A DNA stretch of 32,662 nt, taken from contig RPQN01000027.1 in NCBI GenBank assembly GCA_003819715.1, positions 1 through 32,662 of the forward strand, written 5' to 3'. Positions within the stretch are counted from its first letter, which is position 1. Each line of letters begins with the position of its first letter. The DNA comes from Ignavibacteriota bacterium. GTDB lineage: Bacteria; Bacteroidota; Ignavibacteria; UBA10030. Under the pieces are notes generated by a model. The model was not told where the DNA came from, searched no databases, and saw nothing but the letters and a program-made list of their open reading frames with translations. The translations under genes and the position numbers were made by a program. Positions 1,777 through 28,940 of the stretch are shown here, piece by piece.

Positions 1777-2319
1777 TCAATTAAATATTGGATTCTCTCT
1801 GTCATAAAACCATTTTATTGGATTGTTGATAATATAATCACGGATGTGTTGTAGACCTTTTTCGTCGCGAATGATGTGTTCATAAAATCCTGGCTGCCAG
1901 CGAAATTCATTCGATCCAATTCGCCGGCATTCTCTCGTCACGGCAGCTTTATACGTTCGTATAATGACCGACAATGTTCCTTTTTTCGGCGATATTATCG
2001 CAGAGGAATCTTTCGTAGAGACGTTCAATTGAACGTCTCTACCTCGTTGATCATTTATTATAATAATTCCGTGAATATGGTTCGGCATTACAATAAATTC
2101 ATCCAATGTAACATAATGAAAATGATCCGGAATTTGTTCCCAGCACTTTTTAGCAATATTACCAACATTCGACAAATTCATAATTTCTTGTTCCACATCC
2201 CCCAATATGCATTCATGATTGCGAACACATATCGTTGCAAAATAATCACCTGGGTGGGAATAATCATACCCTTTCAATCTCGTTGATTCGATCCGAAATG
2301 TGTTTTTAAATAATGTCAT
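1777..2319 (-). CDS. REP-associated tyrosine transposase (RAYT-1, Y1/IS200-like family)
   Basis: This is a single-domain Y1 HUH transposase of the REP-associated (RAYT) type, which nicks single-stranded REP hairpins. The metal-binding HUH motif is V-M-P-N-H-I-H-G (H81, H83). The probable nucleophile is Y162 in D-Y-I-I-N-N-P-I-K-W, matching the position of the catalytic Tyr in E. coli TnpA-REP as I recall it. Its 180 residues are normal for the family. The ATG follows a good ribosome site, AAGGGGGT. Residues 93-102 (roughly R-D-V-Q-L-N-V-S-T) are encoded by a 28-nt perfect palindrome of the same type as repeats at 2332, 2449 and 19009. It lies in the variable loop between the HUH motif and the K-A-A-V-T-R segment. 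The gene appears intact, so it may be active or recently domesticated. Confidence 0.88.
   Translation of the reverse strand: MTLFKNTFRIESTRLKGYDYSHPGDYFATICVRNHECILGDVEQEIMNLSNVGNIAKKCWEQIPDHFHYVTLDEFIVMPNHIHGIIIINDQRGRDVQLNVSTKDSSAIISPKKGTLSVIIRTYKAAVTRECRRIGSNEFRWQPGFYEHIIRDEKGLQHIRDYIINNPIKWFYDRENPIFN
2015..2042. repeat. GTAG-type palindrome inside the RAYT-1 coding sequence
   Basis: A perfect 28-nt palindrome, GTAGAGACGTTCAA joined to its reverse complement TTGAACGTCTCTAC. It keeps the RAYT-1 frame open. It belongs to the same family as the intergenic palindromes at 2332-2359, 2449-2476 and 19009-19044. Confidence 0.85.
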
Positions 2320-2331
2320 GTTACCCCCTTT

Positions 2332-2359
2332 GTAGAGACGTAATATATTACTTCTCTAC
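2332..2359. repeat. GTAG-type palindrome just upstream of RAYT-1
   Basis: A 28-nt inverted repeat beginning GTAGAGACGTAATA and ending TATTACTTCTCTAC, with one imperfect pairing region. It lies 13 nt upstream of the RAYT-1 start codon and could fold in the RAYT mRNA leader or act as a substrate of the transposase. Confidence 0.75.
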
Positions 2360-2448: not shown

Positions 2449-2476
2449 GTAGGGATGTTTCATTAAACGTCCCTAC
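2449..2476. repeat. GTAG-type palindrome downstream of the M3 peptidase gene
   Basis: A 28-nt inverted repeat, GTAGGGATGTTTCA followed by TTAAACGTCCCTAC, one mismatch from perfect. It sits 24 nt past the peptidase stop codon, so it may also act as a 3' mRNA hairpin. The 2320-2500 gap otherwise holds only the second palindrome and a short remnant-like reading frame at 2395-2463 (minus). Confidence 0.75.
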
Positions 2477-19008: not shown

Positions 19009-19044
19009 ATTTGTAGGGACGTTCCGCTGAACGTCCCTACAAAT
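19009..19044. repeat. GTAG-type palindrome between two PLP-enzyme genes
   Basis: ATTTGTAGGGACGTTC and GAACGTCCCTACAAAT, with a short centre, form a perfect inverted repeat of the same family as those near RAYT-1, 17 kb away. It lies between the two PLP-enzyme genes, 5 nt after the first stop codon, and could form a hairpin in their shared mRNA. Confidence 0.85.
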
Positions 19045-19065: not shown

Positions 19066-20532
19066 ATGAACCTCGAAAAATATTTTTCACCATACCGGAA
19101 AAACACTGTCGGAGACCGGCAGACATTTTCCACCCCCTTCGGCAAAAAAAGAATCGTCTATGCGGACTGGACGGCAAGCGGAAGACTGTATGCCCCCATT
19201 GAAGAAAAGATACAGAATACCTTCGGCCCGTTCGTCGGCAACACGCATACCGAGACCAATATCACCGGCACCATGATGACGCAGGCGTATCACTACGCAC
19301 ACGAAGTGATTAAACGCCATGTGAACGCCGGGCCTAAAGACGCATTGCTGAATGTCGGATTTGGCATGACCGCCGCGCTCGTCAAGTTTCAGCGGATGCT
19401 GGGTTTGAAATATCCGGATCAGCTCGATCAGTTTTTTTCTCTCCCCCCCGGAAAAAAACCGGTCGTGTTCGTGACGCACATGGAACACCACTCTAATCAT
19501 ACCTCATGGTATGAAACGATCGCGGATGTCTGCATCATTCCGCCGACAAAAGAAGGACTGGTCGATATTGACCGGTTCCAGGAATCCCTGGACGAATATA
19601 AAAACCGCCCGTTGAAAATAGGTTCATTTACCGCCTGCTCCAATGTGACCGGCATTCAAACTCCGTATCACCAGCTCGCAAAAATCATGCATGAACATGC
19701 CGGTGTTTGTTTCATCGATTTTGCCGCCTCGGCGCCGTACGTGAAGATCGACATGCATCCCGCCGATCCGCTGGAACGATTGGATGCGATCTTCTTTTCC
19801 CCGCATAAATTTTTGGGAGGCCCCGGTTCCTCCGGCGTCATGGTCTTCGATTCGGAGCTCTATCACCTCAAATCTCCCGATCAACCGGGCGGCGGCACTA
19901 TTCTCTGGACCAATCCATGGGGAAAATACCGCTACAAACCCGATATTGAAGAACGCGAAGACGGCGGCACTCCCGGATTCCTCCAGGCCATCCGGTCCGC
20001 ACTTGCGGTGGAATTAAAAGATCTAATGGGTGTGAAACAGATGCTCAAACGCGAGGGAGAGATTGTCCCCGGGATTCTCAGAGAAATGCGGACGATCCCG
20101 GGCCTGAAGATCCTCGCAGATCATATCGATGAGCGGCTCGGGATCATTTCTTTTTATTTTGATGATATCCATTATAACCTGGTCGTTAGAATTTTAAACG
20201 ACCGGTTCGGAATCCAAGTGCGCGGGGGCTGTTTATGCGCCGGTACGTACGGACACTATCTGCTTCATGTCGATCAGCCGCATTCCAGTGCGATAACGGA
20301 ACGGATCGATCATGGCGATCTTTCGACCAAGCCGGGATGGGTACGAATGTCCCTGCATCCGACGACGACCAGCGACGAAGCGGAATTTATCATGGAGGCG
20401 CTGCGCGCGCTGCGGAACAATATCGGGAAATGGGAAAAAGATTACCGGTACAACGTGCATAACAACGAATTCTCGCACAAGAGATTTAAGGGACACCATC
20501 AGAAGACTGTTGAGCAATGGTTTGATTTGTAA
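19066..20532 (+). CDS. Class V aminotransferase-fold PLP enzyme, cysteine desulfurase (SufS)-like
   Basis: This is a fold-type I, class V PLP enzyme related to cysteine desulfurases and selenocysteine lyases. The PLP lysine is K248 in F-F-S-P-H-K-F-L-G-G-P-G. H-M-E-H-H-S-N (near residue 140) and D-F-A-A-S-A-P-Y match the family. A Cys pair, C389 and C391 in R-G-G-C-L-C-A-G-T-Y-G, lies where SufS/CsdA carry the persulfide cysteine. At 488 residues it is about 80 longer than SufS (about 405), with extra sequence in the C-terminal third. No sufBCD genes are near, so it may act on another amino acid. The ribosome site is poor; the start is the first ATG after the palindromic repeat. Confidence 0.88.
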   Translation: MNLEKYFSPYRKNTVGDRQTFSTPFGKKRIVYADWTASGRLYAPIEEKIQNTFGPFVGNTHTETNITGTMMTQAYHYAHEVIKRHVNAGPKDALLNVGFGMTAALVKFQRMLGLKYPDQLDQFFSLPPGKKPVVFVTHMEHHSNHTSWYETIADVCIIPPTKEGLVDIDRFQESLDEYKNRPLKIGSFTACSNVTGIQTPYHQLAKIMHEHAGVCFIDFAASAPYVKIDMHPADPLERLDAIFFSPHKFLGGPGSSGVMVFDSELYHLKSPDQPGGGTILWTNPWGKYRYKPDIEEREDGGTPGFLQAIRSALAVELKDLMGVKQMLKREGEIVPGILREMRTIPGLKILADHIDERLGIISFYFDDIHYNLVVRILNDRFGIQVRGGCLCAGTYGHYLLHVDQPHSSAITERIDHGDLSTKPGWVRMSLHPTTTSDEAEFIMEALRALRNNIGKWEKDYRYNVHNNEFSHKRFKGHHQKTVEQWFDL

Positions 20533-20538
20533 TGCCCT

Positions 20539-20862
20539 GTTACAGTCACGTATTGGTCCGTGACTGCCAGGTAATTGTAATTAAACAGAGATTCATAAAT
20601 TATCTACCATTACCCGGCTAACGTAGCCTCCCTAAGAACCCGGGTGTCACGGTCCATACCGTGACACTTTACCTGAACTTATACAGAAACGTTGGTAGGC
20701 ACATGCTACAGTCACGGATTGGTCCGTGACTGCCAGGAAATTGTACTAACTTGGGCGTCACAGTCCACACCGTGATACGTATACATAACTTCCCCAACGT
20801 AAACGGATATTCTTAAATTATCTACTGTTACCTGGGTGTCACGGTCCACACCGTGACACTTA
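20539..20862. repeat. REP/BIME array, left part (five units, two orientations)
   Basis: Five hairpin units lie in the 377-bp gap upstream of RAYT-2. Type A (GTTACAGTCACGG...CCGTGACTGCCAG) occurs at 20539-20570 and 20705-20736. Type B (CCTGGGTGTCACGGTCC...CCGTGACAC) occurs at 20639-20668, 20751-20780 and 20831-20862. Read in reverse complement, type A begins CTGGCAGTCACGG, so A and B are one family in opposite orientations. The linkers are also repeated (TAAATTATCTACC.TTACC occurs before two B units), giving a composite unit of about 130-160 bp. Confidence 0.88.
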
Positions 20863-20909
20863 CAATTAATCATTCTCAATCAAATAAATAATAGGGGAGA
20901 ATTATAGAA

Positions 20910-21464
20910 ATGGGATTGCGGGGGCGGCAACTCTTAAAGGGCGAAGAGTTTTTCTTTATTACAACGACCGTTGTGCATCATGCAAAAGTGTTTATAAAGA
21001 AGGAGTATTGCGACATACTTCTTCATAATATCCGCTACTATCAGCAACGATATAAATTCGAAATTCTTGGATATGCGACAATGCCGTCCCACCTTCATTG
21101 GATCATCGAAATAAAATCATCGCAGGGAAGCGTTTCCGATATTATGAGGGACGTTAAAAAATACAGTGCATGGGATATTATGGAAGCAATTGAGCACGAT
21201 GGACAGACCAATTTAATAAAATTATTTGAGGATTCAGCTTATTTATCTAATTCACATTCACAGAAACGCAAATTCTGGATGCCGCGTTTTGATGATGAAG
21301 TAATTCATAATGAAGGAATGTTGCTTACGAAATTAGGGTACATTCATAATAATCCGGTGAAAGCAGGCCTGGTGGAAAACCCGGAAGATTATATCTTTTC
21401 AAGTGCGAGGAATTATATTCTAGATGATCATTCTGTCATAAATATCAAGACCGATTGGAAATAG
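20910..21464 (+). CDS. REP-associated tyrosine transposase (RAYT-2)
   Basis: This 184-residue Y1-type HUH transposase belongs to a different RAYT group from RAYT-1. The HUH motif is A-T-M-P-S-H-L-H-W-I-I-E (H61, H63). The probable nucleophile is Y144 in L-G-Y-I-H-N-N-P-V-K-A-G-L-V, the position of the catalytic Tyr in E. coli TnpA-REP as I recall it. The ATG follows a strong ribosome site (GGGGAGA). It lies in the middle of a REP array, with five units to the left and about seven more to the right in two gaps. This is the classic autonomous RAYT arrangement. The gene looks intact. Confidence 0.9.
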   Translation: MGLRGRQLLKGEEFFFITTTVVHHAKVFIKKEYCDILLHNIRYYQQRYKFEILGYATMPSHLHWIIEIKSSQGSVSDIMRDVKKYSAWDIMEAIEHDGQTNLIKLFEDSAYLSNSHSQKRKFWMPRFDDEVIHNEGMLLTKLGYIHNNPVKAGLVENPEDYIFSSARNYILDDHSVINIKTDWK

Positions 21465-21486
21465 AATCTTGAATCAACAACGTTTA

Positions 21487-21665
21487 CCTGGGTGTCACGG
21501 TAAAAATATATCCATTGAAATTTGTTACAGTCACGAAATGGTTCGTGACTGCCAGGATTTTTTATGCGCCTGTGCATCACGGTCCACAGCGTGACGCATA
21601 ACAAAATGTAAACAGAGACACTGGCACATTCATGTTACAGTCACGGAATGGTCCGTGACTGCCAG
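21487..21665. repeat. REP/BIME array, right part next to RAYT-2
   Basis: Four units follow RAYT-2: a half-length type B at 21487-21500 (CCTGGGTGTCACGG, then broken off), type A at 21524-21555, a diverged type B at 21569-21600, and type A at 21634-21665. The last ends 18 nt past the tolC stop codon, so its hairpin may serve as the 3' end of the efflux operon mRNA. Confidence 0.85.
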
Positions 21666-21682
21666 TCCACCGGAAATAACCG

Positions 21683-22972
21683 TCAATAGTCGAACGGTTT
21701 TCCTGTCGCCCGATCGAGTTCGTATTTATTCAGCATCAGACGATACAATGCCTGCAGATTCGTCAGCTTGGAAGCTGATTCGGCCGTCTCTGCGTCCAGC
21801 AAATCCAGATTCGTGATCGAACCGGTTTCGTACCGGGTACGCGCAATTGAAACGGCTTCCATGGCCTGTCGTAATTGCACTTCCGAGATCTTCACTTTAT
21901 CCAGGGCCGCCTGAACATCCGCCGCGACCTGCTCCACATCGGAGCGGACCTGCCGTTCGACGTCCCGGCCATGCGCCTGTTCCGCCTGCAGGGAGGCCTG
22001 TGCTTCTTCCTCCTGATGACTCACCCGGCCGCCGTCGAACAACGGCACACGCGCCTGCACTCCCCACATCCAGTTTCCGCGGAGTGCGTAAATATTGGGC
22101 TCGTATCCGTTTTTCACTCCATAGGCGAGGTTGACATTGAGCACCGGCATATTCCCGAGGGAACTGAATTTCTTCTGGAGCTGCGCGGATTGTTCCGCGT
22201 CGCGTGCCAGCTTCAGCTCGGGCCGCTGCTCTATCGCCGTGCGCTGGAGAGAATCGATGTTGAGTGCAATGGAGGTTTGCTCAAATGAACCTCGAATGAG
22301 CACCGGCGTGTTTGCCGGAAGTCCGAGAAGCTGACGGAAGATCGACTCCTGTTTCTGAAGCGAATTGAGAATTTCCACCCGCTGATTCTGCGATGCGGCG
22401 ACTCGCACCTGTGTCGTGAGGACATCGAAGTTCGTTGCGCTTCCCGCGGCCACCCGTTTTTGCGTAATGGCAAGATGTTCGTTGAGTGCCGCAATTTGTT
22501 CATCCTGCACGAGCAGGCTTTTCCGCAGCAAAACGATTGTATAGAACGTGCGGATCGTCTGCAGCTCGAGATTACTTTTTGTCAGATCGACCATATCGCG
22601 CGATGCTTGAACCTTTGACCGGCTCATATCAACGGCGGAATTCGTTTTCCCGAAATCGTAAACGGTGTACCGCCCGATAATGTGCGCATCATAATTATCT
22701 GCAGGCGCCAGAACCAGATTTTGCCCGCCGAAGAAAAATGCCGGTACCGGACCGATGTGTGTATATGCGGCTTCTGTTGAAACATCCGGAAGCTGCACGC
22801 TCGCAGCCTGGGAGACGCGTGCTTCCGCTGCCCGGGTATTCGCCAGCGCCTGTTCTATCGCAGGATGGATTTGCAGGACCCGCTGGACCGCCTGCTCAAC
22901 GGTCAAGGAATCCTGTGCAGCCGAGATTGAGATATTGAAAAAGATTAAAACGAGAAAACCGAGCAATTTCAT
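21683..22972 (-). CDS. TolC-family outer-membrane efflux channel
   Basis: This is the outer-membrane component of a tripartite exporter. It has a signal peptide (M-K-L-L-G-F-L-V-L-I-F-F-N-I-S-I-S-A-A) and 429 residues. Two repeated alpha-helical halves follow the outer-membrane efflux protein pattern, for example A-V-Q-R-V-L-Q-I-H-P-A-I-E-Q-A-L-A-N-T, A-A-S-Q-N-Q-R-V-E-I-L, and the second-half A-L-D-K-V-K-I-S-E-V-Q and T-R-Y-E-T-G-S-I-T-N-L-D-L-L-D-A-E. AAGGA precedes the ATG. It is the last gene of the efflux operon, but a REP-bearing gap of about 210 bp separates it from the permease gene, so its level may be set separately. Confidence 0.92.
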   Translation of the reverse strand: MKLLGFLVLIFFNISISAAQDSLTVEQAVQRVLQIHPAIEQALANTRAAEARVSQAASVQLPDVSTEAAYTHIGPVPAFFFGGQNLVLAPADNYDAHIIGRYTVYDFGKTNSAVDMSRSKVQASRDMVDLTKSNLELQTIRTFYTIVLLRKSLLVQDEQIAALNEHLAITQKRVAAGSATNFDVLTTQVRVAASQNQRVEILNSLQKQESIFRQLLGLPANTPVLIRGSFEQTSIALNIDSLQRTAIEQRPELKLARDAEQSAQLQKKFSSLGNMPVLNVNLAYGVKNGYEPNIYALRGNWMWGVQARVPLFDGGRVSHQEEEAQASLQAEQAHGRDVERQVRSDVEQVAADVQAALDKVKISEVQLRQAMEAVSIARTRYETGSITNLDLLDAETAESASKLTNLQALYRLMLNKYELDRATGKPFDY

Positions 22973-23004
22973 AATACTGTATCCTTGATAGACTTCTAAA
23001 CTTA

Positions 23005-23177
23005 GTTACAGTCACGGAATGGTCCGTGACTGCCAAGAATTTTTCAGGTGTATTGACTGCCTGGATGCTTCAATAACCTTTACTACCCCGGGTGTCACAT
23101 TCTCCCGCAAACAGCGCAGGACAAGCATACCGCGACAACCTTGTCAAGGTTACATGGAATGGTTCGTGACGCCCAGG
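23005..23177. repeat. REP units in the gap between the efflux permease gene and tolC
   Basis: A well-kept type A unit lies at 23005-23036 (GTTACAGTCACGG...CCGTGACTGCCA). A strongly diverged type B unit starts near 23087 (CCCGGGTGTCACA) and is interrupted by unrelated sequence. A degenerate type A lies at 23149-23177 (GGAATGGTTCGTGACGCCCAGG). The array thus continues on the far side of tolC, within the operon. Confidence 0.75.
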
Positions 23178-26823: not shown

Positions 26824-26895
26824 TTTTTTGTCCCCCTCATTTTCGAGGGGGACCACAGGGGGTGCTTCTCATTATGAAGCCATTCTCTTTAGCCA
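26824..26895. repeat. Flanking direct repeat, copy 1 (GTCCCCCTCATTTTCGAGGG)
   Basis: About 72 bp beginning TTTTTTGTCCCCCTCATTTT and containing CCCCCTC...GAGGGGG (a stem) and GGTGCTTCTC, then GAAGCCATTC and TTTAGCC. It closely matches 28867-28940 in the same orientation, and the two copies bracket the secreted dehydrogenase-like gene. Confidence 0.8.
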
Positions 26896-26971: not shown

Positions 26972-28675
26972 ATGCTTCATTCCCGGCAGGCAGGAAGAAT
27001 TACCGTTCTCCTCTCATTGATTTTCTTACAGGCAATATGTCTGAATGCCCAACCAAAAGTGACACGCTCCGATATTACTATCAGGCAGGCAGGAATTGTC
27101 GGGTCCAACACAGTCCGCATTAAACAGGATCCTGTTTCCGGCAATCTCTATATCCTGCAGAATAACGGGATCATTCAACGGGTCAATTGGAGTGCGGGAG
27201 GATCGGCAAGCTTAGCCACCGCGTACCAGACATCAGATCATGGCCTGAATGCGCCGTTAGGCATGATCTTTGGAAACGATGGAACGATGTACCTGGTTGG
27301 GAATGACTCGACAGGCCAATTTGGTACCGCAACCATTGTCAAAGGCGTTCCGGATGGTTCCGGAAGCGAACACCGGACGTGGAGTATCATCGCACAAACC
27401 GTCGCATATCCGTACGGAAATATTTATAATCATCGTATGAACGGCATCGTTCTCAACAAGCAGGGCGATTCACTCTACGTCAACAGCGGCGCGGCCACCG
27501 ACCACGGTGAAATGCATGGAGGATTTCGGGAGGTGGGCCTGACCTCCATCATCCTGAAGCTGCCCGTCAATGGGCATACTATTATACTGCAAAATGACCG
27601 CGAGTGGCTTCGCTCGAACGGATTTCTTTTTGCAGAAGGCATCAGAAATACATTCGATCTTGCGTACGGCCCGAGCGGAGATTTATTCGGCGTGGAAAAT
27701 TCGGATGATCGGGATGACCCAGAGGAATTGAATCTGCTCCAGCAGGGCCATCATTACGGATTTCCCTGGAGAATTGGAGGCGACAATACACCGCAGCAAT
27801 ACAATCCGTATAATCCTCACACGGATCCGCTTTTAAGCACTTCGGCATGGGGTGGCGGAAGTTTGTATACGACCTACAGCAACGACCCTGCTTACCCATC
27901 CCGGCCAGAAGGTGTAACGTTTACCGAGCCCATTCCGAGCATTGGACCGGACGCAGATAAATTCAGGGACACAACCACCGGTGCCGTGCGTGATGCCAGC
28001 GCACTCGGACTGACCGTTTCCACATTTACTCCCCACCGTTCAATTGACGGAATAGTGTTTGACAATGACTCCATGCTTGCCGGAAATTTAAAAGGCGGCG
28101 CCTTTGTGATCAGCTTTTCCAACAGCAGACTCATCACCGCAATGGGCGATACAAGTCAGGACCTGGTTCATGTTGCGCTCACGAAACAGAACGGCCAGTA
28201 CATTGCTCACGTGACAAAACTGATTTCAGGTTTGAACTCACCTCTGGGCATCGAGCGCGCAGGAAATATTCTCTATGTGGTGGAAACGGGACTGCAGGGG
28301 AACAATATTTCGCCAAAACTTTGGGTCATAACACTGCCGCTGGATGCAAGCACAGGCGTGAAAGATAATGGAACCCTCCCTTCCGCGTTTGCACTCCATC
28401 AAAATTATCCAAATCCGTTTAATCCTGTTACGACAATCAGGTTTTCTATTGGGACGAATAGCCATACGTCCCTGCGGGTGTTTGATGTACTGGGTCGAGA
28501 GGTGGCAACGATTGTATCTGAAGAACTGTCTGCAGGCGAATATTCCCGGCAATGGAATGCAAGCGATATGCCGAGCGGTATTTATATTTGTCGTTTGTCC
28601 GTTGTACCGGCTGAAGGACGGAATGGGCAAGCGCAAACATATACTGAATCCAGAAAACTCGTTTTACTTAAATGA
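26972..28675 (+). CDS. Secreted glucose/sorbosone dehydrogenase-like beta-propeller protein with T9SS sorting domain
   Basis: This protein has a signal peptide (I-T-V-L-L-S-L-I-F-L-Q-A-I-C-L-N-A-Q) and then about 420 residues resembling the PQQ-dependent soluble glucose dehydrogenase/sorbosone dehydrogenase propeller. Examples are V-R-I-K-Q-D-P-V-S-G-N-L-Y, A-P-L-G-M-I-F-G-N-D-G-T-M-Y, E-G-I-R-N-T-F-D-L-A-Y and G-V-E-N-S-D-D-R-D-D-P-E-E-L-N. The last 85 residues, from A-L-H-Q-N-Y-P-N-P-F-N-P, are a type A sorting domain for type IX secretion, so the protein should be released or attached at the cell surface. Catalytic activity and cofactor use cannot be confirmed here. AAGGAG seven bases before the ATG supports the start. 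A direct repeat lies on each side. Confidence 0.88.
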   Translation: MLHSRQAGRITVLLSLIFLQAICLNAQPKVTRSDITIRQAGIVGSNTVRIKQDPVSGNLYILQNNGIIQRVNWSAGGSASLATAYQTSDHGLNAPLGMIFGNDGTMYLVGNDSTGQFGTATIVKGVPDGSGSEHRTWSIIAQTVAYPYGNIYNHRMNGIVLNKQGDSLYVNSGAATDHGEMHGGFREVGLTSIILKLPVNGHTIILQNDREWLRSNGFLFAEGIRNTFDLAYGPSGDLFGVENSDDRDDPEELNLLQQGHHYGFPWRIGGDNTPQQYNPYNPHTDPLLSTSAWGGGSLYTTYSNDPAYPSRPEGVTFTEPIPSIGPDADKFRDTTTGAVRDASALGLTVSTFTPHRSIDGIVFDNDSMLAGNLKGGAFVISFSNSRLITAMGDTSQDLVHVALTKQNGQYIAHVTKLISGLNSPLGIERAGNILYVVETGLQGNNISPKLWVITLPLDASTGVKDNGTLPSAFALHQNYPNPFNPVTTIRFSIGTNSHTSLRVFDVLGREVATIVSEELSAGEYSRQWNASDMPSGIYICRLSVVPAEGRNGQAQTYTESRKLVLLK

Positions 28676-28866: not shown

Positions 28867-28940
28867 TTTTTTGTCCCCCTCATTTTCGAGGGAGAGCATA
28901 GGGTGTGCTTCTCGATCGCGCAGCCATTCGTCATAGCCGA
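28867..28940. repeat. Flanking direct repeat, copy 2 (GTCCCCCTCATTTTCGAGGG)
   Basis: Second copy of the repeat at 26824-26895, same orientation, diverged at several positions (GGGAGAGCATAGGGTGTGCTTC). Its ends, GCAGCCATTC and ATAGCCGAAA, match the first copy. A minus-strand reading frame over it (28692-28934) is probably not a gene. The rest of the 28676-29056 gap holds only the terminators. Confidence 0.8.

Follow-up and report, generated by a model that had tools for sequence, protein, structure and literature searches.

In-frame double-foot REP palindromes in the variable loop of subclass 2.4 RAYT genes

Why should the gene of a RAYT (TnpA_REP) transposase carry, inside its own reading frame, a perfect palindrome of the type that also lies around it? 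The question is raised by a gene near one end of the window, that is, the whole stretch of 32,662 nucleotides analysed here, where a perfect 28-nt palindrome, already pointed out in an earlier note on this DNA, extends between the second bases of codons 93 and 102 and encodes G-R-D-V-Q-L-N-V-S-T (Table 1). In-frame double-foot REPs have been known since Quentin et al. 2018 (PMC6006769), who found them in tnpA_REP genes between the HuH motif and the Y, in the variable beta3-alphaC region, and took them to be possibly of little consequence for the protein. The feature is general in subclass 2.4, the window gene is a further instance of it, and the window taken alone is an ordinary case of a described phenomenon. 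What is new here is the frequency of the palindrome, a null model for it, a rule on its reading frame, the turnover of its interior, its match to flanking REPs and a site in T9SS sorting tails; the main texts of PMC6006769 and of Di Nocera et al. 2013 (PMC3733652), as searched here, mention neither the frame rule nor the identity at the DNA level, and neither the turnover of the interior nor the site in T9SS tails.

Table 1. Positions of the RAYT gene, its motifs and the palindromes of the window
Feature	Position	Strand	Basis or context
RAYT / TnpA_REP-type Y1 HUH transposase gene, 180 aa	1777..2319	-	ORF; match to 4ER8 by sequence and fold
HUH motif H81-I82-H83 (NHIH)	2071..2079	-	invariant in alignments A1 and A2
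WQ motif W141-Q142, conserved	1894..1899	-	alignments A1 and A2
Y162 of YIINNP, presumed catalytic tyrosine	1834..1836	-	invariant in alignments A1 and A2
Variable loop, residues 91-115	1975..2049	-	AlphaFold2 pLDDT
Perfect 28-nt double-foot palindrome GTAGAGACGTTCAATTGAACGTCTCTAC, 14/14 pairs	2015..2042	.	in frame in RAYT ORF
Related palindrome, one unpaired position	2332..2359	.	12 nt upstream of RAYT start codon
Related palindrome, intergenic, two unpaired positions	2449..2476	.	family pattern
Related palindrome, intergenic, one unpaired position	19013..19040	.	family pattern
Degenerate in-frame copy ATTGGGACGAATAGCCATACGTCCCTGC within the T9SS sorting tail encoded by ORF 26972-28675	28448..28475	+	

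The nearest solved chain to the encoded protein is 4ER8 (sequence comparison, E=7e-5), the E. coli TnpA_REP in complex with a REP hairpin, which is also the top fold match (Foldseek rank 1) of an AlphaFold2 model built from 76 relatives with a mean pLDDT of 87; the two superpose with Z 12.4 and rmsd 3.1 over 120 residues (VIA-align), and YIINNP around Y162 aligns with YIYINP of 4ER8. The sole family match of this protein and its two paralogues in the same genome is the NCBIfam equivalog NF047646 (REP_Tyr_transpos), of which none is a member, the scores being 56.9, 76.1 and 53.7 bits against a cut-off of 80. Pfam PF01797 (Y1_Tnp) gives the RAYT protein 17.8 bits, below the gathering cut-off of 23, and at relaxed E it is matched by all 11 members of A1 (best 2.7e-8). 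As in RAYTs generally, REPs both adjoin the gene (at 2332 and 2449) and are dispersed, with about ten family palindromes in the genome by pattern searches that detect only 28-nt GTAGNG...CNCTAC forms, and the gene is present singly rather than as a multi-copy insertion sequence, the genome being without a close copy. By five tested features it is a RAYT of subclass 2.4 (group 4 in the table of PMC6006769), a subclass characterized there by the motifs NH[IFV]H, WQ and YIxNNP and by double-foot REPs: it has N80-H81-I82-H83, W141-Q142, Y162-I-I-N-N-P167, a low-confidence loop at 91-115 of the model, variable in length among relatives, as the beta3-alphaC insertion, and the in-frame double-foot REP itself. 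It should also be mentioned that an 8-residue extension at the end of alphaB is another feature of this subclass (PMC6006769). In the model, residues 91-110 have a pLDDT of 57-61 and the others mostly at least 88, the first 20 residues excepted, and the loop joins the HUH strand (81-88) to helix 116-133; the palindrome-coded stretch is thus predicted to be a flexible loop, in agreement with the earlier proposal that it falls in a variable one.

E. coli TnpA_REP (4ER8; PMC8266576) shares the fold and the HUH, WQ and Y motifs of the window RAYT, but E. coli REPs are extragenic and single-foot with a bulged stem, whereas the window element is in the gene and double-foot. The tetranucleotide that is recognised in E. 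coli is GTAG, located at the stem foot, and the stem bulge is required for activity (PMC8266576); since the predicted hairpin at 2015-2042 instead pairs GTAG with CTAC, recognition of a double foot by the RAYT is only putative. The GTAG-tagged REPs of PMC3733652 are similar in being small palindromes with a GTAG foot near RAYT genes, some of which lie in frame inside other genes, but the element treated here is perfect, has feet at both ends and a low copy number, and has its main in-frame home in the RAYT gene. Rickettsia palindromic elements (as given in PMC3733652) are likewise found in frame in protein genes, but they have a CGTC tag and no associated transposase gene, and RPE-1 is longer.

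The family pattern has four matches in the window as against none in 100 dinucleotide shuffles. Related copies had earlier been placed at 2332, 2449 and 19009, and the first two are indeed found there, while the third starts four nucleotides further on; none of the three is perfect. As a single-stranded DNA hairpin the in-gene palindrome is predicted to fold with -12.1 kcal/mol (z -5.0 against shuffles), and as an RNA hairpin with -20.9 (z -5.2). The copy at 2332-2359 lies in the presumed 5' UTR, directly ahead of the GGGGG that presumably belongs to the ribosome-binding site, its counterpart is perfect in L028 and L029, two orthologues from the same genus, and for translational control of the RAYT it is a better candidate than the in-gene palindrome. 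A promoter scan around the gene gave no excess over shuffles. The window also holds a second Y1_Tnp gene (20910-21464), unrelated to the RAYT, with several copies each of the palindromic repeats TTACAGTCACGGAATGGTCCGTGACTG and GTCACGGTCCACACCGTGAC on both its sides (20514-23177), which is the classical flanked arrangement.

The palindrome might in principle result from chance codon choice or from selection on the loop peptide, and the frequency among relatives bears directly on this. We surveyed 154 genes, of which 72 are from the genome itself and its relatives and 82 from 80 named loci in GTDB genomes; the search for loci started from conserved motifs and took up to 80 of them, so that the set is a sample and not a census. 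An inverted repeat with perfect arms of at least 10 nt is present in 105 of the 154 coding sequences, compared with 6 of 770 synonymous-codon shuffles, and 99 of 101 alignable palindromes fall in the stretch that separates the HUH motif from the following helix. The two exceptions carry an in-frame palindrome ahead of the HUH motif (L108) and close to the N-terminus (L125). Named carriers come from at least 18 phyla, among them Bacteroidota, Chloroflexota, Planctomycetota, Cyanobacteriota and Pseudomonadota. Subclass 2.4 of PMC6006769 is likewise scattered over many phyla, and we found no defining difference from it. In about a third of the relatives the palindrome is absent or decayed, and a search of plasmids returned four relatives, all weak. 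Two loci, L165 and L137, have two RAYT-like ORFs on one short contig stretch, those of L165 with different internal palindromes; a 676-residue ORF over the palindrome of L195 was discarded as a coordinate artefact, its translation being full of stops.

The conserved object in the loop is furthermore the DNA palindrome and not the peptide. Among 88 palindromes with a clear foot, 53 read GTA GGG... (frame 0, peptide VG......L) and 35 read xGT AGG G... (frame 1, peptide RD......PT), and the third frame, which contains the TAG stop, is found in 0 of the 88, so that only the two stop-free frames are used. Within a single clade both frames are in use for the 28-mer GTAGAGACAAGGCATGCCTTGTCTCTAC, which encodes VETRHALSL in L126 but RDKACLVST in L135. 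In pairs of the same class and frame the palindrome is 95% identical, a figure inflated by the definition of the classes through a shared 6-mer, against 38% over the 24 nt that flank it to either side and 47% at the third positions of residues that agree. Moreover, GTAGGGGCGGTTCGCGAACCGCCCCTAC is identical at 28/28 positions in L073, an order-mate of the window genome, and in L129, L144 and L148, loci titled Planctomycetota, Chloroflexi and Nitrospirae, even though the proteins are only 45-63% identical and their third positions are saturated. We found no point in favour of chance codon choice or peptide selection, which the reading of one 28-mer as two peptides also contradicts; the excess over shuffles and the DNA-level identity across saturated genes refute this exceedingly improbable explanation. 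The earlier note had itself stated that its idea would fall if the loop residues were conserved in relatives from genomes lacking such palindromes, and since the peptide is unconserved and the DNA palindrome conserved, this argument against it does not hold.

If the palindrome is a REP, it should be asked whether it is of the type that the enzyme is surrounded by. In 21 of the 33 genes that have both, the flanking REP matches the internal core, as compared with 3.8% for the internal cores of other genes, which together with the dispersed copies bears out the earlier suggestion of a cognate-type palindrome. Genomes with a RAYT hit have a median of 4 GTAGNG-N16-CNCTAC sites and those without one have 0 (p=0.0006), and the excess has p=0.012 with the own genus left out. 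About 40 dispersed copies that were sampled are mostly intergenic with no RAYT within 1 kb; the in-gene palindrome of G014 recurs unchanged at four or more other places, and RAYT genes are the sole location of true palindromes that fit the pattern in G058 and G012. The notion that internal and flanking palindromes are alternatives to each other was rejected, as there is no association over all genes (28/76 vs 14/34, Fisher p=0.85).

In the host genome (G000) all three RAYT genes (C50, which is the window gene, C55 and C218, about 47% identical, the other two at most about 50% to C50) have a perfect GTAG...CTAC palindrome in the same loop, each a different one (TGGTAGGGACGCACGGCCGTGCGTCCCTACCA in C55 and GTAGGGATTTGATTAATCAAATCCCTAC in C218). 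The C50 28-mer has two exact intergenic copies (C128 and C289), both at the 3' ends of neighbouring ORFs. A possible explanation, close to the reading of PMC6006769, is neutral and passive insertion into a tolerant loop without any renewal. The predicted disorder of the loop is consistent with it, as are the in-frame REPs of other genes (PMC3733652, and the HsdM and T9SS cases below) and the remnants or partial extra copies in the loops of L021, L028 and L088. However, the RAYT loops make up about 0.01% of the G000 genome and yet contain about a quarter of its palindrome copies as detected by the pattern search, the copies are mostly perfect while the surrounding genes are saturated at third positions, and old shared copies that stay perfect already strain this reading, which we consider improbable. 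The RAYT at L077:660-1328 has a loop that holds, beside the palindrome, a tandem array encoding repeated NHKDVM units, and this array and the partial copies suggest repeated insertion and decay.

How the palindrome is inherited was followed on a tree of 149 proteins made with the loop left out, which has modest support (34 of 146 inner branches starred) and in which an L132 stretch reading N was not scored as a palindrome. The class of the palindrome requires 78 changes on this tree as against a shuffled mean of 96 (minimum 92), its presence 30 against 40 (minimum 33) and its frame 18 against 27 (minimum 22). Similarity of protein and palindrome is correlated as well (Mantel r 0.33, 0/2000 permutations), which fits either inheritance or repeated insertion by enzymes of inherited specificity. 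The interior thus tracks the protein tree, albeit loosely. In an independent-pair test of residue covariation with palindrome position 5, only 2 pairs lie on supported branches. Among close pairs, some show matching changes in the two arms (L054/L075, L021/L067 and L093/L095) and others have the whole interior replaced (L057/L077 and L060/L062). The palindrome is far more persistent than one would expect of a single harmless insertion, and its sequence also changes more quickly.

The main rival is a cis-regulatory role under purifying selection, in which a hairpin of single-stranded DNA or mRNA would be bound or nicked by the RAYT and changes in one arm would be compensated in the other. The both-arm changes of the three pairs just mentioned are what this predicts, and the complete identity of GTAGGGGCGGTTCGCGAACCGCCCCTAC in four groups despite saturation, the strong predicted RNA and DNA hairpins and the second palindrome in the presumed 5' UTR, common to congeners, are likewise in agreement with it; indeed the few dispersed copies, and the palindromes confined to RAYT genes in G058 and G012, fit a maintained cis element as well as they fit renewal. 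A selected element is however in poor agreement with the roughly one third of relatives that are without the palindrome or carry a decayed copy, with close relatives that swap whole interiors, with the use of the same 28-mer in both frames and with the presence of the same elements in unrelated genes, and on balance we find it unlikely.

From these sequence comparisons it seems rather probable that the copies are placed and renewed in the RAYT loop, either through single-stranded DNA cleavage and joining by the enzyme or through conversion with dispersed copies. The window gene carries, in its flexible beta3-alphaC loop, a single double-foot REP whose type is also the one around its family, and placement would occur preferentially near the enzyme's own gene. 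The disorder of the loop and the absence of a stop from two of the three frames may explain why the REP survives there, and if the in-gene copy is renewed, it would stay perfect and keep track of the current REP type of the enzyme. Renewal is suggested by the perfect palindromes in old genes, the use of both frames and the interior swaps. Any benefit, be it self-targeting or control of expression by a hairpin, is putative and would be secondary, and so are the self-nicking and autoregulation put forward in the earlier note. If RAYT genes do hold an up-to-date REP of their own, an enzyme's target type can be looked up in its gene, so that hundreds of enzyme-target pairs could be read from genomes and their specificity tested. 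The turnover data furthermore make REP movement testable, in that the palindrome at a given orthologous site may be an entirely different one in a close relative.

The element is also found in proteins that have nothing to do with RAYTs, which agrees with the earlier idea that a REP-type repeat can serve as a coding linker. The host genes are derived from the sampled dispersed copies and one pattern search and are not a census. In an HsdM-type N6-methylase gene (L207:1-1392, genome G052) an in-frame palindrome encodes RRDVQLNVPT within an inserted stretch of about 26 residues, which two homologues are without. In the T9SS sorting tails of L220, L222, L223, L224 and L228 an in-frame GTAG...CTAC palindrome occupies one identical turn, in the context FxI-VGTxxxxxSL-xVYDxLGREVATL, with differing interiors and several of the copies perfect. 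The degenerate copy at 28448-28475 of the window is in the very place where relatives have perfect ones. Genomes with palindrome-bearing tails have 72-114 such tails each, and the tails with the element are no longer than normal, residues being apparently replaced and not added. A more far-reaching and, to our mind, doubtful notion is that subclass 2.4 RAYTs keep in their own gene a renewable current REP, a type specimen which would renew the dispersed REPs, that enzyme and target would be transferred horizontally together, and that the element would also be passed on to other tolerant loops, chiefly to the turn that precedes SLxVYDxLGREVATL. The T9SS-tail gene of the window is bracketed by two copies of a 47-nt repeat (26824-26870 and 28867-28913), 91% identical to each other.
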